A stretch of DNA of 28,808 nucleotides. Source: a virus. Where the stretch lies: the IMG/VR virus record IMGVR_UViG_3300037246_000647, positions 1 to 28,808 of that record. One strand, 5' to 3'. How positions within the stretch are numbered: the stretch's first letter is position 1; the number at the start of each line of letters is the position of its first letter. Below the pieces are notes generated by a model that saw only the letters and a program-made list of their open reading frames with translations, was not told where the DNA came from and did no database searches. Below are positions 2,205-23,875 of this stretch, piece after piece. Position numbers and translations under genes: made by a program.

Positions 2205-3481
2205 TAGGTGTCCTTCCCGAACAAGAAACACGTCCTGAGAGGTGCCGACGTGTCTATCTTCACCCACAGCTTGGCCCCCACGTAGGCTCCACCTTCGTCT
2301 TGTATCCACTCGTGTACGCCCACCGTTATCAGAGGAGCGTCAGAACCTACGAGTCTGGGATAGAAGAGAGCGTCGTCAAGGAACACTTCCTGCCCTGGCT
2401 GACCCTTCACACGAAACATAATCCGAGCAGGGATACTGATCCCTTGAGCAGGAAAGTCATCTTCGTCAGGTAAGCCCTGAAAATACTCTGGGTCAGGCGT
2501 CCAGTTGTCTCCGTCGTATCGCGGGTAAGGGATTCCCGGCCACAGGTGAGAAGGAGGCGGTATCTCATACAAGACCTGCTCCCAGTCACCACCGGTCAAC
2601 TCGTACTCCCGATTGTCTTCCCATTCAGACTGCCAAAAGACGCTATCGCCCGTGTCGGTGCGTCGTATGGTTGGGTTGGGCCAGACGACGCTGTACACCA
2701 ACATATCCAATTCGACGGTGCATGGGCTGTCCGAGTTCACCCACAGTTCGTGGTGCATGAGTAAGTCGGGGTTCTCAAACGGTGCCGTTGGACTCCCACA
2801 CTGACCGCTAGCTATCGGCATCTGGTACGACTTCAACAGCAAGTGCGTCTGGTCTGCGGGTAAGGGACCGAAGTAGCCCCCCTCCGCGCCCCAGATCGGA
2901 ACCAGCCAAGGAGACAGTCCACTGCTGTTCAATGTCACTTTCGCTGAATACTTCCCCTCTGGTCCGACGTTATGTTCATGTGAACGTTCGTCAGTGATGG
3001 CCCACAGGTTGGTGAGTGGTTCCTGTACCCACCAGTTCGTATAGGTGCCATTGTTCCAGGGCGTGGCCCTGTTGTAGGCGACCGACTGATCATCTTCAAT
3101 CTTCTGATATCGCTGCGGCCACAACTCCGATTGGTCCCACTTAGGAATGTACGGGTCGTTCCACAACATCTGACCTTCAAACGAACCATCAGGGGCCAGT
3201 TGGTCTTGGATCACGCTCGACCCGCCCGCTGCTCGCAGAGCTTTGACCTCTGGGTGTTCCACTCCCCACGCCGCCAGGTCTATAAGGGTTTCACCGGCCC
3301 ACGCCGCAGACCATTCAAACAAGGGAGGGTTGGCATACGCCGCACCGAAATAGACCGGCTCAATGAGTCCCTCACCCAACCCGCGAGCAATGACATCGAA
3401 TCGTATGTTGAACTGGTCCGACCATTGGATACGGTCCCGTTCATGCTTCTTCTCTGCCTGATGCAGCGACAAGTACGTCAC
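2204..3481 (-). CDS. Minor tail protein with a carbohydrate-binding-module-like jelly roll
   Basis: 425 aa, GTG start overlapping the previous stop as GTGA. The protein is rich in Trp, Asp and Pro and has no membrane segment. The N-terminal 80 residues (IRFDVIARGLGEGLIEPVYF, then a Trp-rich stretch) are unlike the rest. The region from about residue 165 to 400 reads as a jelly-roll: HELWVNSDSPCTVELDMLVY, a WEQVLYEIPPPSH strand, and the closing strand ARIMFRVKGQPGQEVFLDDA, which is the typical end of CBM4/9-like sugar-binding folds ('arirf....g...vylDDv'). Placed just after the peptidase-bearing tip protein, it is probably a virion protein that contacts host surface glycans. Fold by eye; ligand unknown. 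Confidence 0.8.
   Translation of the reverse strand: MTYLSLHQAEKKHERDRIQWSDQFNIRFDVIARGLGEGLIEPVYFGAAYANPPLFEWSAAWAGETLIDLAAWGVEHPEVKALRAAGGSSVIQDQLAPDGSFEGQMLWNDPYIPKWDQSELWPQRYQKIEDDQSVAYNRATPWNNGTYTNWWVQEPLTNLWAITDERSHEHNVGPEGKYSAKVTLNSSGLSPWLVPIWGAEGGYFGPLPADQTHLLLKSYQMPIASGQCGSPTAPFENPDLLMHHELWVNSDSPCTVELDMLVYSVVWPNPTIRRTDTGDSVFWQSEWEDNREYELTGGDWEQVLYEIPPPSHLWPGIPYPRYDGDNWTPDPEYFQGLPDEDDFPAQGISIPARIMFRVKGQPGQEVFLDDALFYPRLVGSDAPLITVGVHEWIQDEGGAYVGAKLWVKIDTSAPLRTCFLFGKDT
2971..2988 (+). promoter_or_regulatory. Copy of the dyad element inside a tail gene, antisense
   Basis: Plus strand reads TATGTTCATGTGAACGTT, 16 of 18 identical to element G (28527-28544). It faces against the minor tail gene that contains it. 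It may be coincidental, being in coding sequence. Confidence 0.25.
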
Positions 3482-6400
3482 TGGACGTTACCCGTACCGC
3501 TCCCACCAGACGCAGACCCCATAAGTATGACCCCACCCGCGATCTGCTGTGGCGTCGCGCAAATCTGAAAGTGCATCGGGTCCGGTGTAGACCAGAAGTT
3601 CCCCCACTTGAACACCCGATGGTTCCCGACCTTCGTACGAATAAGACTCTCGGCTTCGATGCCAATCTTGTAGATCGTGGAGCCAACCGTCGCTCGTGTT
3701 CCGTGAGGGTTGAAACCACTACCTGAGTTGATGTCAATAGCCAAGCCCCATGAGTGGTTCGACCAGTTTCTGGTGCTATACCCACCACCGATCAGCTTGA
3801 CAGGCCGACAGCTATACGAACCTGTCATGCTCCTGTTTACTTTGTAGTTGTGTCTGCTGACCAACACCCTCAGTGCCAACCATGCGGCGTAACCACGCTC
3901 GTCCACCTTGAGTCGTATCGTTTCGGTCTGGGATGCGTGAGAACTGGCGGTCCAGAAGTTGATCCAAATCAAATGACTCTGGTTGCAGTCACCGCTGCTC
4001 CAGTTCGATCCAGGCGCTCGGTTCGGAGGTCCAGCATTCGGCCAGTAGGCCCAGTTCGCAGTGTTAGAACAGTTGAGTGCCGTTCCGCCACGATTGTTAC
4101 CGGTGCCACCACCACTACCGTCGCCACCGGTTGAATCAGGAGGCACCGTGTAGTCGGGATACCCGTCGCCTGTCTCCCAGTCGATATCGTTCGACGGCCA
4201 CTCCAAACCTGGGGGAAGAGGGAACAAGTCACCGTAATCTTCGTCAACCCGCGGGTACGGCTCTGTGATTACTGGCTGCTCGTACAGGAACCAGTCGTCA
4301 GGCCACTTGGATTCGTCGTTCTCAACCTCGTCGGGAATCTGCCCTATCGCCCTCAGATAGGCGAACAGTGCAGGATGCATGGTTCTAGCGTTGACCAACC
4401 AAGTGCTGTCAGGACCGTTGCCCAACCAGTGGGTGTCTATGTCCATCGTCCAACTGCCTGACTCAAGGTCCATCGTTGACCTGAGTCCCTGTATGTAATG
4501 GACGTACACTTCTGAGGTGGTGCGTTCGTAGATTCTCACCTGATCGTCAGGTTCAAACGCGGGCATCCCAGGAATGCGGAACGACGACGTGCGGTACGAC
4601 CAGTGAATCCACAAGGACACCAGATAGGCGAACTTGGCTACGGCAACAGCCGCGTTGGGGTCGTCGGCAGTCCCGAACGGATAATCAGGCACCAACATGG
4701 GACGCTGCTGACCAGCCAACAGAGACAAGTCATCTACCTCGTACCCTGCTCCTTGCGCTCCGCTCGCCTCCTGAGTTTCCGGTGCTGTCTCACCAATAGC
4801 AAACCCCGGCGTGAACACGCCATACACTGACGGATCATCAGCGGACACCACGATCACCTCTGACCGAAGGTTCTCGTCATCAATCGTCACGCCGTAATCC
4901 ATCAGCACTTTGGTTTCGTCAATAGTCCTCAACGAGTCGTAACCGACGTAACCCAAGCCCTGCACAAAGTTGCCGGTCTTCCAAATGTTCGGCGGTCGGA
5001 ACACTGCACCACCAGACGAGTCGATGTAGAAGATGAATCCCAGTATCTCTTTGATCTGATTGATGCCGTCCTGTACTGACTTGTTGTCCCAGTACGACGG
5101 ATCAATGCACGGAGGGTCTACGGGGAACGCTCCAGACTGGAAGAAGTCTCCCCACACTCGTCCGTTTGTTCCCTCATACCATTCATCCAGAAGCGGGTCG
5201 GGTTGTTCTGCATTGGGCCAAAAGAATCCAGACCAGGCGCAAAACAACTTCACGATGTCCACGTAATCGTCAACGTTCCCAGGAACAAACGTTTCAACGT
5301 CCACCGGATCGGGGGTAGTGGTAGTCGTAACTGTCTCGACAGTGGAGGGCTGGAAGTGATACGCCCGCAACTCGTACACGGCTGCGCGGTACTGATAGGT
5401 GCCAAGGTTGGAGTCGGCCAGATTCGTAAACACCACGCGTATTTCGTCAGCGTTGTAGGTGGCAGGCAAGTCAACAGTGATCCAGTTGTTGTTTCTGGGT
5501 GTGTTGAGGCTCTTGACGTACTTGATGTTCGACCCGTTCGGGTACGCAGGCTTAGAGGTGCTGGCATAAGGGACCGTGCTTGACCCTTGCCACACTCCGT
5601 TCACCTTCACGCCGATATATACCTTGTATCCACCCCACTTCTGCTTGAAGCGAACCTGATTGATTGGCTCCCCTCTGGTGTCAGCGCCTATCCACTCAAA
5701 GGCCCAGCCCACGCTTGGCCCCGAGTTGCCCACAGACAGCCAGTAGGTGGACTCGTCACCGTCGAAGGCGTGAGAGGCGCGGTGACCGTAAATGGAGCCG
5801 TTAACGCCGTACCAGGGCGTGTTGGAGGACCTGTAGCCAGACGTGAGGAAGTTCGCCACGTTGGGACCAAGCGATTCAGTCACACCAGTAGTGGTCGATG
5901 CCACTATGTCTTCAGCCTGGAACACGCTTATGTCGATGTGGTCAGCACAAAACTCCAAGGGGTAGTTGTCGATGGGGATGATGGGTGGGTACAGACGTTG
6001 TTCGATCAACAGCTTGGCTGCGTCACGACAGGAAATAAGGATCGTGGCATCCGCCTTGTACTCCACCGAGTCGATCAGCCATATCCCGGTCAACGTCAGC
6101 TTCGTGTCATCGCTTGGAGTCCCAGCGAAGTCCGTTCCGTACCCCTGGAAGGTCTGGATCACACGGTTGGGGATAAGCATGTCTACCCAGGTGGCATCAA
6201 TGTCATGCGCCCAACGGTTCAACCCCGAATCGTCAACAGCGATACCACGACGGAAGGTGTACGGCCCCGGCTTACCCAAGTCTTTCAGTTCGCGACGGGT
6301 AGGTGACGTTCCCCCATCCCAGGCATCGTCCAGAATGTCATCGGCTGTCGGTGCGCGCAGGTTGAGGATTGTCATCTGCATGGATGCGGCATCGGCCCCC

Positions 6401-6603
6401 AACGTACGGTCTATTTCTATCATCCTGATGTTGGGCATCTCGACGGTTTCAGGGTTCTGTCCGAACAGCAACGTGCGCCACGGTGAATTCCCGTCTGGCT
6501 TCAACACTCGCTTCGATATGGTGGCCCTAGCTGTTGGCTTGTTGTCCCCTACCAACAAACCACTCTCCCAAACGTCCCACATCTCTTCCGGTACGTTCCG
6601 CAC
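3478..6603 (-). CDS. Large tail-tip protein with discoidin-like domain and C-terminal M15 peptidase
   Basis: 1041 aa. Domains in order: residues 1-235, beta-rich tail-tip-like N-terminus; about 245-415, a discoidin/F5-8C-like sugar-binding domain (ASHAFDGDESTYW near 276-288, closing strand YRAAVYELRAY); 425-770, more tail-like sequence; 820-845, a Gly/Ser/Thr-rich linker; 880-1020, a metallopeptidase of the M15 type. In the last, SNHSWGLAID gives the zinc ligands H950 and D957, and DPMH gives D1008 and the third ligand H1011. The M15 fold fits D-Ala-D-Ala carboxypeptidase or L-Ala-D-Glu endopeptidase activity, so this tip protein probably opens peptidoglycan during DNA entry. The usual Glu after MHF is Gln here. 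The start overlaps the upstream stop by one base. Confidence 0.88.
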   Translation of the reverse strand: MRNVPEEMWDVWESGLLVGDNKPTARATISKRVLKPDGNSPWRTLLFGQNPETVEMPNIRMIEIDRTLGADAASMQMTILNLRAPTADDILDDAWDGGTSPTRRELKDLGKPGPYTFRRGIAVDDSGLNRWAHDIDATWVDMLIPNRVIQTFQGYGTDFAGTPSDDTKLTLTGIWLIDSVEYKADATILISCRDAAKLLIEQRLYPPIIPIDNYPLEFCADHIDISVFQAEDIVASTTTGVTESLGPNVANFLTSGYRSSNTPWYGVNGSIYGHRASHAFDGDESTYWLSVGNSGPSVGWAFEWIGADTRGEPINQVRFKQKWGGYKVYIGVKVNGVWQGSSTVPYASTSKPAYPNGSNIKYVKSLNTPRNNNWITVDLPATYNADEIRVVFTNLADSNLGTYQYRAAVYELRAYHFQPSTVETVTTTTTPDPVDVETFVPGNVDDYVDIVKLFCAWSGFFWPNAEQPDPLLDEWYEGTNGRVWGDFFQSGAFPVDPPCIDPSYWDNKSVQDGINQIKEILGFIFYIDSSGGAVFRPPNIWKTGNFVQGLGYVGYDSLRTIDETKVLMDYGVTIDDENLRSEVIVVSADDPSVYGVFTPGFAIGETAPETQEASGAQGAGYEVDDLSLLAGQQRPMLVPDYPFGTADDPNAAVAVAKFAYLVSLWIHWSYRTSSFRIPGMPAFEPDDQVRIYERTTSEVYVHYIQGLRSTMDLESGSWTMDIDTHWLGNGPDSTWLVNARTMHPALFAYLRAIGQIPDEVENDESKWPDDWFLYEQPVITEPYPRVDEDYGDLFPLPPGLEWPSNDIDWETGDGYPDYTVPPDSTGGDGSGGGTGNNRGGTALNCSNTANWAYWPNAGPPNRAPGSNWSSGDCNQSHLIWINFWTASSHASQTETIRLKVDERGYAAWLALRVLVSRHNYKVNRSMTGSYSCRPVKLIGGGYSTRNWSNHSWGLAIDINSGSGFNPHGTRATVGSTIYKIGIEAESLIRTKVGNHRVFKWGNFWSTPDPMHFQICATPQQIAGGVILMGSASGGSGTGNVQ

Positions 6604-6986
6604 TATCCGACCTCTAGAAAATCAATGGTGTAATCAAACCGCGACTGGTTGATGGCTCTCCGCAAACGTGTCCACTTAACCGACGTAATCAAAATGTTCC
6701 AACTGCGCCCCTGGTCGTCGGTCAACACCATCACATAATGTTTGTCTGCCCATAGTTGCAGGTCTTGGTAGAACGCCTCTGTATTAACCAGGCCAGTCAT
6801 TGACCCCGTATTCACTTTGTCTCTGCCCTGGAATATGAGTGGTTGCGCGTTCGGTGCAGTCAGCGATTCTTGGACGATGTTGGCCTCACGTCCCGGTGGA
6901 TCGAATGTGTTCGGGTTGATCGGGAACGAGTACACCACCGGGGAACCGGATGAATTGTCAGTCAGGGTCCAAGCAACATGTGGCAT
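6603..6986 (-). CDS. Small minor tail protein following the tape measure
   Basis: 127 aa, ATG overlapping the tape-measure stop as TAATG. The sequence carries features I recognise from a family that commonly follows tape measures in actinobacteriophages: YSFPINPNTF near the start, then LIFQGRDKVNTGSMTG, then a Trp-containing LWADKHYVMVLTDDQGRSWN strand pair and a C-terminal RFDYTIDFLEV strand. This is an all-beta layout compatible with a distal-tail or baseplate-hub component. No membrane segment or signal peptide. The position between tape measure and large tip protein is where siphophages encode Dit-like proteins, but homology to Dit itself is not shown. The function is inferred from order and family memory. 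Confidence 0.85.
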   Translation of the reverse strand: MPHVAWTLTDNSSGSPVVYSFPINPNTFDPPGREANIVQESLTAPNAQPLIFQGRDKVNTGSMTGLVNTEAFYQDLQLWADKHYVMVLTDDQGRSWNILITSVKWTRLRRAINQSRFDYTIDFLEVG

Positions 6987-22288: not shown

Positions 22289-23875
22289 TTAGACGAATAT
22301 CATCCCGACATCCTCGTGTTCCTCCCGCATTTCCTTGAGTTTTTCCAGGGCGTGAAGTTCTTTCCCGGCAACGAACATTGAGGCAGCATCCAGCGTGTGG
22401 AACTTCCCTCGTGCGAACGTTTTCCGTCCGTAAGCGTTGGTCTGTGACTGTTCCCGCGTCCAGGTTTGGCCCTGCCACTCACCCAATAGCTCCGTGTCCC
22501 ACGGGAGGATGAGTCGCTTCTGATCCACGTAGGTACGAAGCAGGTCATACCCATATTCCTTGGCTTGACGTTTGATTTCAAAGTCCGACGGGTCCTGCCA
22601 GTCTTCGTGTTCGTCCCAGCCAATGACCAGCTTCTGGTCTGCGCTGTACCCGATCACTCGGTCCATGATTGCGGGCGCTCCGTCTTGTAGTTCCTGAAAC
22701 ATAGGGAGTCCCAGTCCGGTGCGGTCCATAGTGAAGCGTTGGAACTGGTATTCGTCGAACAGGTATTCGATGACTCGACGTTGATCGGATGATCTGATTC
22801 GTTCCAGATGAATGCGAGCCAGGAGCCTGCTTACGGGTTCTTGGTCCTTTTTGGCTTCGTCACCAAAGATCAGAATCTCAGATGGGTGGTTGGTCATCCC
22901 CACATCCATGCCTGCCCAAGTTATCTTCCATGTTTTGTGGGAACGCGGCAGGTCGATCAAGTCAATGATGTCCACAGGCATCGCCATCTCGTCTGTGATT
23001 CTGCGGTAGTAGTACACGTCTTGGTTGTAGTCAGATGCTTCGTTGTCATCGACCGTTGCCATGAGGCGGTGCAACACGAACAGGGGATTGGTGGCGTCAC
23101 CGTGGAGTCCGAGGATGTTCCGCTTGTAGTCGGGTGAGTCCCTAGTCCCGTACATCTCGATTTTGTCAATGCGCTCCTGGTCTGACCATGTGGGTCGGTG
23201 CATACCGGTGAGCCTGTGGACCGACCAACCCGACCCTGGTTGCGAATGGCGATAGAACTCGTCACGCACACCCTTGGACACACCATGAGCGCGCCACTGA
23301 GCGTTTTCCTTACCGTGAGTCAGTGTCTCCACCAACTCAATCCAGCCTGCTTCGGGATAGTCCTGCGCTTCGTCCAACTCCAGTCTCAAAGGGTGCAACC
23401 CCTTCACCCCTTTGCCGTCCCTCTGTGGGATGCGACCGAGAATCTTGGAGCCGTTGGTGAAGTTCACTTGGAAGGGGCGATGCTTGAACCCTCTACCTAC
23501 ACCTTTAGGTAAGAGTTCGCGGGTAATACGGGTTCCTTTGATCCTGTCTTCGATACGAGAGGTCAATGGGTCAAGGTGAACAAGCTCTGGAGCAGTGACC
23601 ACCATCTCTGCGCCGGGATACTGCATTGGGAACGCCCAACCACGAAGAATGATGCTCTGTGTCTTGCCCACAGCACGGGCGCACTGATCCAACATGAGGG
23701 TGGACGAGTCGCGCCACCACGAATGCTGAAAGTCCCATGCTCGAAAGATCAGTTGCTTGTTGGAGGCCATTGGGTCTTCCCAAAGAAATTCCGCCAGGTC
23801 AATGCCTGACGGGTCTTCCAACATGGCGACCAAATACGACTCTGCTTCAGTTAAACCAACACTCTGTACCGCCAT
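22289..23875 (-). CDS. terL: Terminase large subunit
   Basis: 528 aa. The N-terminal ATPase has a Walker-A-like loop CARAVGKT at residues 65-72 and Walker B LRLELDEAQ at 163-171 (D168, E169). The C-terminal nuclease domain shows the RNase-H-fold acidic residues: D324 in WAGMDVGM, D384 in FTMDRTGLG, and D496 in FHTLDAASM. The protein cuts concatemeric DNA and pumps it through the portal. Length is typical. ATG 23875 lies 16 bases after a promoter-like dyad; no strong ribosome site is visible, only AGG further upstream. It opens the structural block, being the first gene after a strong terminator. Confidence 0.95.
   Translation of the reverse strand: MAVQSVGLTEAESYLVAMLEDPSGIDLAEFLWEDPMASNKQLIFRAWDFQHSWWRDSSTLMLDQCARAVGKTQSIILRGWAFPMQYPGAEMVVTAPELVHLDPLTSRIEDRIKGTRITRELLPKGVGRGFKHRPFQVNFTNGSKILGRIPQRDGKGVKGLHPLRLELDEAQDYPEAGWIELVETLTHGKENAQWRAHGVSKGVRDEFYRHSQPGSGWSVHRLTGMHRPTWSDQERIDKIEMYGTRDSPDYKRNILGLHGDATNPLFVLHRLMATVDDNEASDYNQDVYYYRRITDEMAMPVDIIDLIDLPRSHKTWKITWAGMDVGMTNHPSEILIFGDEAKKDQEPVSRLLARIHLERIRSSDQRRVIEYLFDEYQFQRFTMDRTGLGLPMFQELQDGAPAIMDRVIGYSADQKLVIGWDEHEDWQDPSDFEIKRQAKEYGYDLLRTYVDQKRLILPWDTELLGEWQGQTWTREQSQTNAYGRKTFARGKFHTLDAASMFVAGKELHALEKLKEMREEHEDVGMIFV

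Follow-up and report, generated by a model that had tools for sequence, protein, structure and literature searches.

P0001, a 1041-aa protein encoded on the minus strand at positions 3478..6603 of the window (the whole 28,808-base virus record analysed here, in which no tRNA gene was found), is probably a siphophage-like tail hub that has been decorated twice, with one module for binding surface glycans and an M15 peptidase for cutting the cell wall at entry. The reading frame is intact from a GTG start, and stops interrupt the reading on the plus strand over the same interval. In order along the chain the protein consists of an N-terminal conserved, hub-like part (residues 1-240; 5884..6603), a discoidin/CBM32-type module (residues 240-425; 5329..5886), a second conserved, hub-like part (residues 436-740; 4384..5298), a variable linker rich in Pro, Gly and Asp (residues 741-840; 4084..4383) and an M15 peptidase domain (residues 840-1041, the peptidase proper at about 844-1030; 3481..4086), all on the minus strand. 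Scans of viral_contigs recovered seven more full-length homologues, 46-53% identical and alignable end to end with P0001, every one of which has the hub parts, the discoidin-like insert and the M15 domain. The layout given in the preliminary description, namely a single tail gene for 1041 aa with a mid-chain discoidin-like module, a Gly/Ser linker and a C-terminal M15 domain, is thus borne out and is kept in the seven relatives.

Gene order and the hub-like parts

The minus-strand order is tape measure, 127-aa gene, P0001, 425-aa gene, GNAT-type gene and 539-aa gene (172-1791, minus), with the terminase large subunit at 22289-23875. The tape measure protein P0003 (6986..12283, minus, 1765 aa) matches PHROG phrog_167 (E 1.4e-7) and gave zero matches among annotated phages. 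Between it and the hub lies a small gene of about 127 aa (6603..6986, minus), in the position of Dit but at half the size of Dit. This small gene is present upstream of the hub in all eight contigs, directly so in those of the seven relatives, and the window's copy is identical to theirs at between 46/117 and 75/122 positions. A long tape-measure-like ORF also lies upstream in seven of the eight contigs, the eighth (L006) ending near the contig edge. Pfam searches located no hydrolase domain in P0003, in agreement with the earlier remark that no peptidoglycan-cutting domain is seen there, nor did they find one in the tape measure proteins of L002 and L003, both of which are cut at the locus start.

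The succession of tape measure, small gene and hub is the same as that of TMP, ORF46 and ORF47 in TP901-1, where we take ORF46 and ORF47 to be Dit and Tal. Since P0001 follows the tape measure and a small gene just as Tal does in TP901-1, an 'evolved Tal' hub is the best reading of the protein, and it is this gene order that places P0001, putatively, at the tail tip. According to the excerpted text of a review, Tal proteins can hold carbohydrate-binding modules within their N-terminal structural domain, which defines the 'evolved Tal', and lysin domains in a C-terminal extension (PMC7291167). P0001 would resemble the evolved Tal of those excerpts both in gene order and in carrying, within its N-terminal structural part, an insert of the carbohydrate-binding type, and its wall-cutting C-terminal extension would have counterparts in the Tal proteins of TP901-1, Tuc2009 and 80alpha. 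It differs in the nature of the additions, the insert being discoidin/CBM32-like rather than one of the BppA-type modules that the excerpts describe, and the hydrolase being of the M15 type. A described tail protein with an inner peptide-bond-cutting wall enzyme also resembles P0001, although the part of the source text available does not call that enzyme M15. The preliminary description's account of the domain architecture stands. The coupling of wall recognition and wall cutting in one tip protein is less out of the ordinary than that description implied, as Tals with an inserted carbohydrate-binding module or a lysin extension are already described in the excerpted review (PMC7291167).

The likeness to TP901-1 is one of arrangement, and a sequence match to its Tal is undetectable: hhalign of the P0001 family against TP901-1 Tal returned no match (probability 0.3%). 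Furthermore, the preceding protein, at 127 aa, is not a full-size Dit and has about half the length of TP901-1 ORF46 (253 aa by coordinates). A PDB sequence search with either the full protein or a five-row profile gave zero matches at E up to 1, the best match of the hub to a tail family in PHROGs reached an E of only 0.076, and a full-length AlphaFold2 model built from five sequences had a mean pLDDT of 31.9 and was not used. Against four relatives, residues 1-240 are 46-54% identical and residues 436-740, the best conserved stretch of P0001, are 57-62% identical, with 136 of 305 columns invariant.

Two features of the neighbouring genes were observed in passing. The window has a GNAT acetyltransferase gene (within 1788-2309, minus; Acetyltransf_10 E 1.3e-6, above cut-off) with a tail-fibre-like gene on either side; in L002, L003 and L006 the two tail-fibre-like genes abut with nothing between them. 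The 425-aa gene P0002 (2204-3481, minus) appears to have a mid-chain insert of about 300 aa relative to a tail protein that measures 132-141 aa in L003 and L006, and to which its first and last 50 or so residues align (scores 77 and 86). A split domain common to P0002 and P0005 had been suspected from short motifs at their ends; the pairwise scores bear it out for P0002 and not for P0005 (32 and 39), and it is retained as a weak lead.

The inserted discoidin/CBM32-type module

The Pfam family PF22633 (F5_F8_type_C_2) matches P0001 at residues 370-431 with an E of 4.5e-4, and its score of 21.2 bits does not reach the cut-off of 27.8, so that sequence by itself is insufficient for a discoidin call. 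Searched against PDB sequences, the discoidin part had no match better than E 0.037, and chitosan-binding modules took the first three places. The structure prediction that had been proposed for this region was run on residues 240-425 with eight sequences and returned a CBM32-type fold of moderate confidence (pTM 0.69, mean pLDDT 64.5, core strands near 90). The top Foldseek match of this model is 4zxe, a chitosan-binding carbohydrate-binding module (E 1.8e-4); CBM32 modules and fucolectins make up the best PDB matches, eight of which have an E up to 0.001. VIA-align superposed the model on AlyQ with its CBM32 (5xnr) at Z 10.6 and an rmsd of 2.7 over 120 residues; among the 50 matches listed, Z runs from 10.6 to 8.8 and many are CBM32 or lectin domains. 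The signature AFDGDESTYWLS at residue 279 follows a pattern, AFD...[ST]T-x-W-x-S, that is present in all eight members. Taken together, the model, the structural matches and the shared signature lead to a predicted discoidin/CBM32 fold for the inserted module, and it is under this modelled fold, not under the Pfam family PF22633, that we would file it.

What the module binds is a separate matter. As predicted, its beta-sandwich would face outward between the two hub parts and bind a surface glycan. It is somewhat unlikely that the module binds no sugar and instead serves as a structural spacer or binds a protein or some other ligand, as many galactose-binding-like folds do. The discoidin fold is common to non-lectins, and IFT25, netrin and BIRC6 appear among the structural matches of the model; the score lies below the Pfam cut-off, with one of the eight members matched at E up to 0.05. 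Against this, carbohydrate-binding CBM32 modules or fucolectins account for most of the top matches by structure and by profile, and the place of insertion resembles that of the carbohydrate-binding modules in evolved Tals, as far as these are set out in the excerpted review (PMC7291167). Binding of a surface glycan is therefore the reading that we carry forward.

The M15 peptidase domain and its active site

Pfam PF13539 (Peptidase_M15_4) matches residues 944-1014 of P0001 with an E of 3.4e-10 and a score of 40.8 bits, where the cut-off is 25, and it exceeds the cut-off in all eight full-length members of the family. The predicted zinc ligands H950, D957 and H1011 lie where they had been placed in the preliminary description and are invariant in the eight, as is the acid D1008, three residues before the last zinc histidine. 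The H-x6-D and D-x2-H spacings fit the Ply500 pattern exactly, and the combined motif S-x-H-x2-G-x-A-x-D ... D-x2-H arose in none of 20,000 shuffles of P0001. Ply500 has zinc ligands H80/D87/H133 and the motif SxHxxGxAxD according to the portion of the source available (PMC3315420). Its Asp130 has been proposed as catalytic, with His133 as a ligand, and in ChiX the mutation D120A abolishes activity, making Asp120 essential, with His123 as a ligand (PMC5778951, excerpts). Ply500, LysB4 and ChiX thus share with P0001 the SxHxxGxAxD and D-x2-H motifs, the zinc ligands and the catalytic Asp, but they are endolysins or a bacterial enzyme, whereas in P0001 the M15 domain stands at the C-terminus of a tail protein.

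By this comparison the predicted catalytic acid of the P0001 domain is D1008, at position -3 from H1011. The replacement by Gln of the Glu that often follows the MHF motif had been raised as a doubt about the active site. That doubt was misplaced, and Q1013 was rejected as a lost catalytic residue, given that the acid of the family is at -3 and is present. The residue after MHF/W is Gln in six of the eight tail proteins and Glu in two; across 16 M15 rows it is Gln in seven and Glu in nine, while Asp is found at -3 in all 16. It is very unlikely that the domain is catalytically dead and retained for wall binding or for structure. The frequency of Gln and the lower conservation of the M15 part (33-43% identity to four relatives, compared with 57-62% for the second hub part) could be read in that way, but the ligands and the Asp do not vary, Gln occupies the same place in the stand-alone lysin P0012 of a sister phage and in PDB chain 8q2g (HFQ; named as an L-alanyl-D-glutamate endopeptidase), and dN/dS in the M15 part is 0.17. 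This last value comes from L002/L003, the least saturated pair, for which the discoidin part gives 0.14 and the hub parts 0.16 and 0.08; the other two pairs are near saturation at silent sites, with two values undefined. The M15 part is under purifying selection, evolving faster than the hub yet constrained.

When a profile of the eight tail M15 domains was searched against the PDB at E up to 10, five sequences matched: Ply500 (2vo9, E 7.7e-4), LysB4 (0.042), 8q2g (0.052), ChiX (0.07) and, last, an antibody chain. As Ply500 ranks first, the bond cut by the domain is most likely L-Ala-D-Glu. Ahead of the domain is the Gly/Ser-rich stretch GDGSGGG, from residue 827, within the linker. In the mechanism that we propose, this flexible linker would hold the C-terminal zinc peptidase, in which Zn2+ would be bound by H950, D957 and H1011, with D1008 acting as general base to hydrolyse a peptide bond of the wall. 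Such local cutting would allow the tail to reach the membrane and the DNA to be released.

Relatives and the origin of the tail peptidase

Phages of this type are almost absent from annotated collections. At E 1e-5, P0001 matched one of 50,697 annotated phage records, Caudovirales GX15bay, whose protein QBQ74878.1 (MK557849) has the hub and the discoidin-like insert at about 30% identity over residues 1-731. In place of the M15 domain the GX15bay protein has GYWxVxxDG-type repeats in two blocks, and a search of the whole 52-kb record for PF13539 found nothing; GX15bay was accordingly left out of the M15 counts. As GX15bay has this hub without any M15, phages of the wider group can do without the cutter. 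The GX15bay gene (L004:12001-15915, MK557849.1) was deposited as 'glycoside hydrolase family 25', but its product is probably a tail hub homologous to P0001. Pfam gives the GH25 label no support, and the label may have fed into the CAZyme count of PMC6460857, to judge by the excerpted text.

The M15 domain alone had zero matches among annotated phages at E 0.01, and the lysin P0012 likewise had zero at E 0.001. A scan of genome_contigs produced 16 pattern matches and zero relatives, the A1 scan of viral_contigs (98 stretches) recovered only two known loci, and the P0007 scan gave zero matches. A literature search at the level of titles found no M15 domain in a siphophage tail hub. Eight further loci (L021-L028) have M15 in stand-alone, endolysin-like ORFs of 179-242 aa. 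One contig (G003) encodes both the tail M15 protein and, at L015:1096-1917 on the minus strand, a separate 273-aa lysin with M15 and PG_binding_1 domains, the M15 part of which matches the tail M15 profile with an hhalign probability of 98.5%. That P0001 is itself an endolysin, with an enzyme for exit joined to a wall-binding part, is very unlikely. Its M15 domain does resemble those of endolysins (phrog_1512), and the window has a single match to PF13539, with no other lysin named among the ORFs scanned, but P0001 lies within the tail cluster, next but one to the tape measure, its M15 domain sits on a conserved part of 800 residues, and G003 has the tail form alongside its separate lysin.

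In a tree of M15 domains the tail forms cluster, requiring two changes as against 5.6 in shuffles. Loci repeating other contigs (L005, L007, L009, L017, L018, L020 and L030-L033) had been dropped, and L026 was left out of the tree as its ORFs are the same as those of L025. Several forks are open, and the G003 lysin forms a long branch whose placement is unsure. With one change obtained in only 27% of bootstrap trees, the tail M15 domains may or may not go back to one origin. We tentatively raise the possibility that the entry cutter goes back to one recruitment of an M15 enzyme of the endolysin type and that the C-terminus of the hub is a site of exchange, bearing M15 in eight phages and repeats in GX15bay; G003 might then rely on one kind of enzyme, with a shared D-x-M-H-W-Q active-site edge, for entry in the tail and for exit in the lysin.

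In conclusion, P0001 appears to be a further evolved Tal-type hub with an M15 domain, from an uncultured lineage and ordinary in kind, both of its decorations being already known for Tals from the excerpted literature. The general understanding of tail lysins is unchanged by it. What the analysis contributes is a corrected reading of the active site, a flag on the GX15bay label as probably denoting a tail hub, and a well-conserved set of eight tail hubs, each of which unites a putative binding module and a putative cutting module in one chain.
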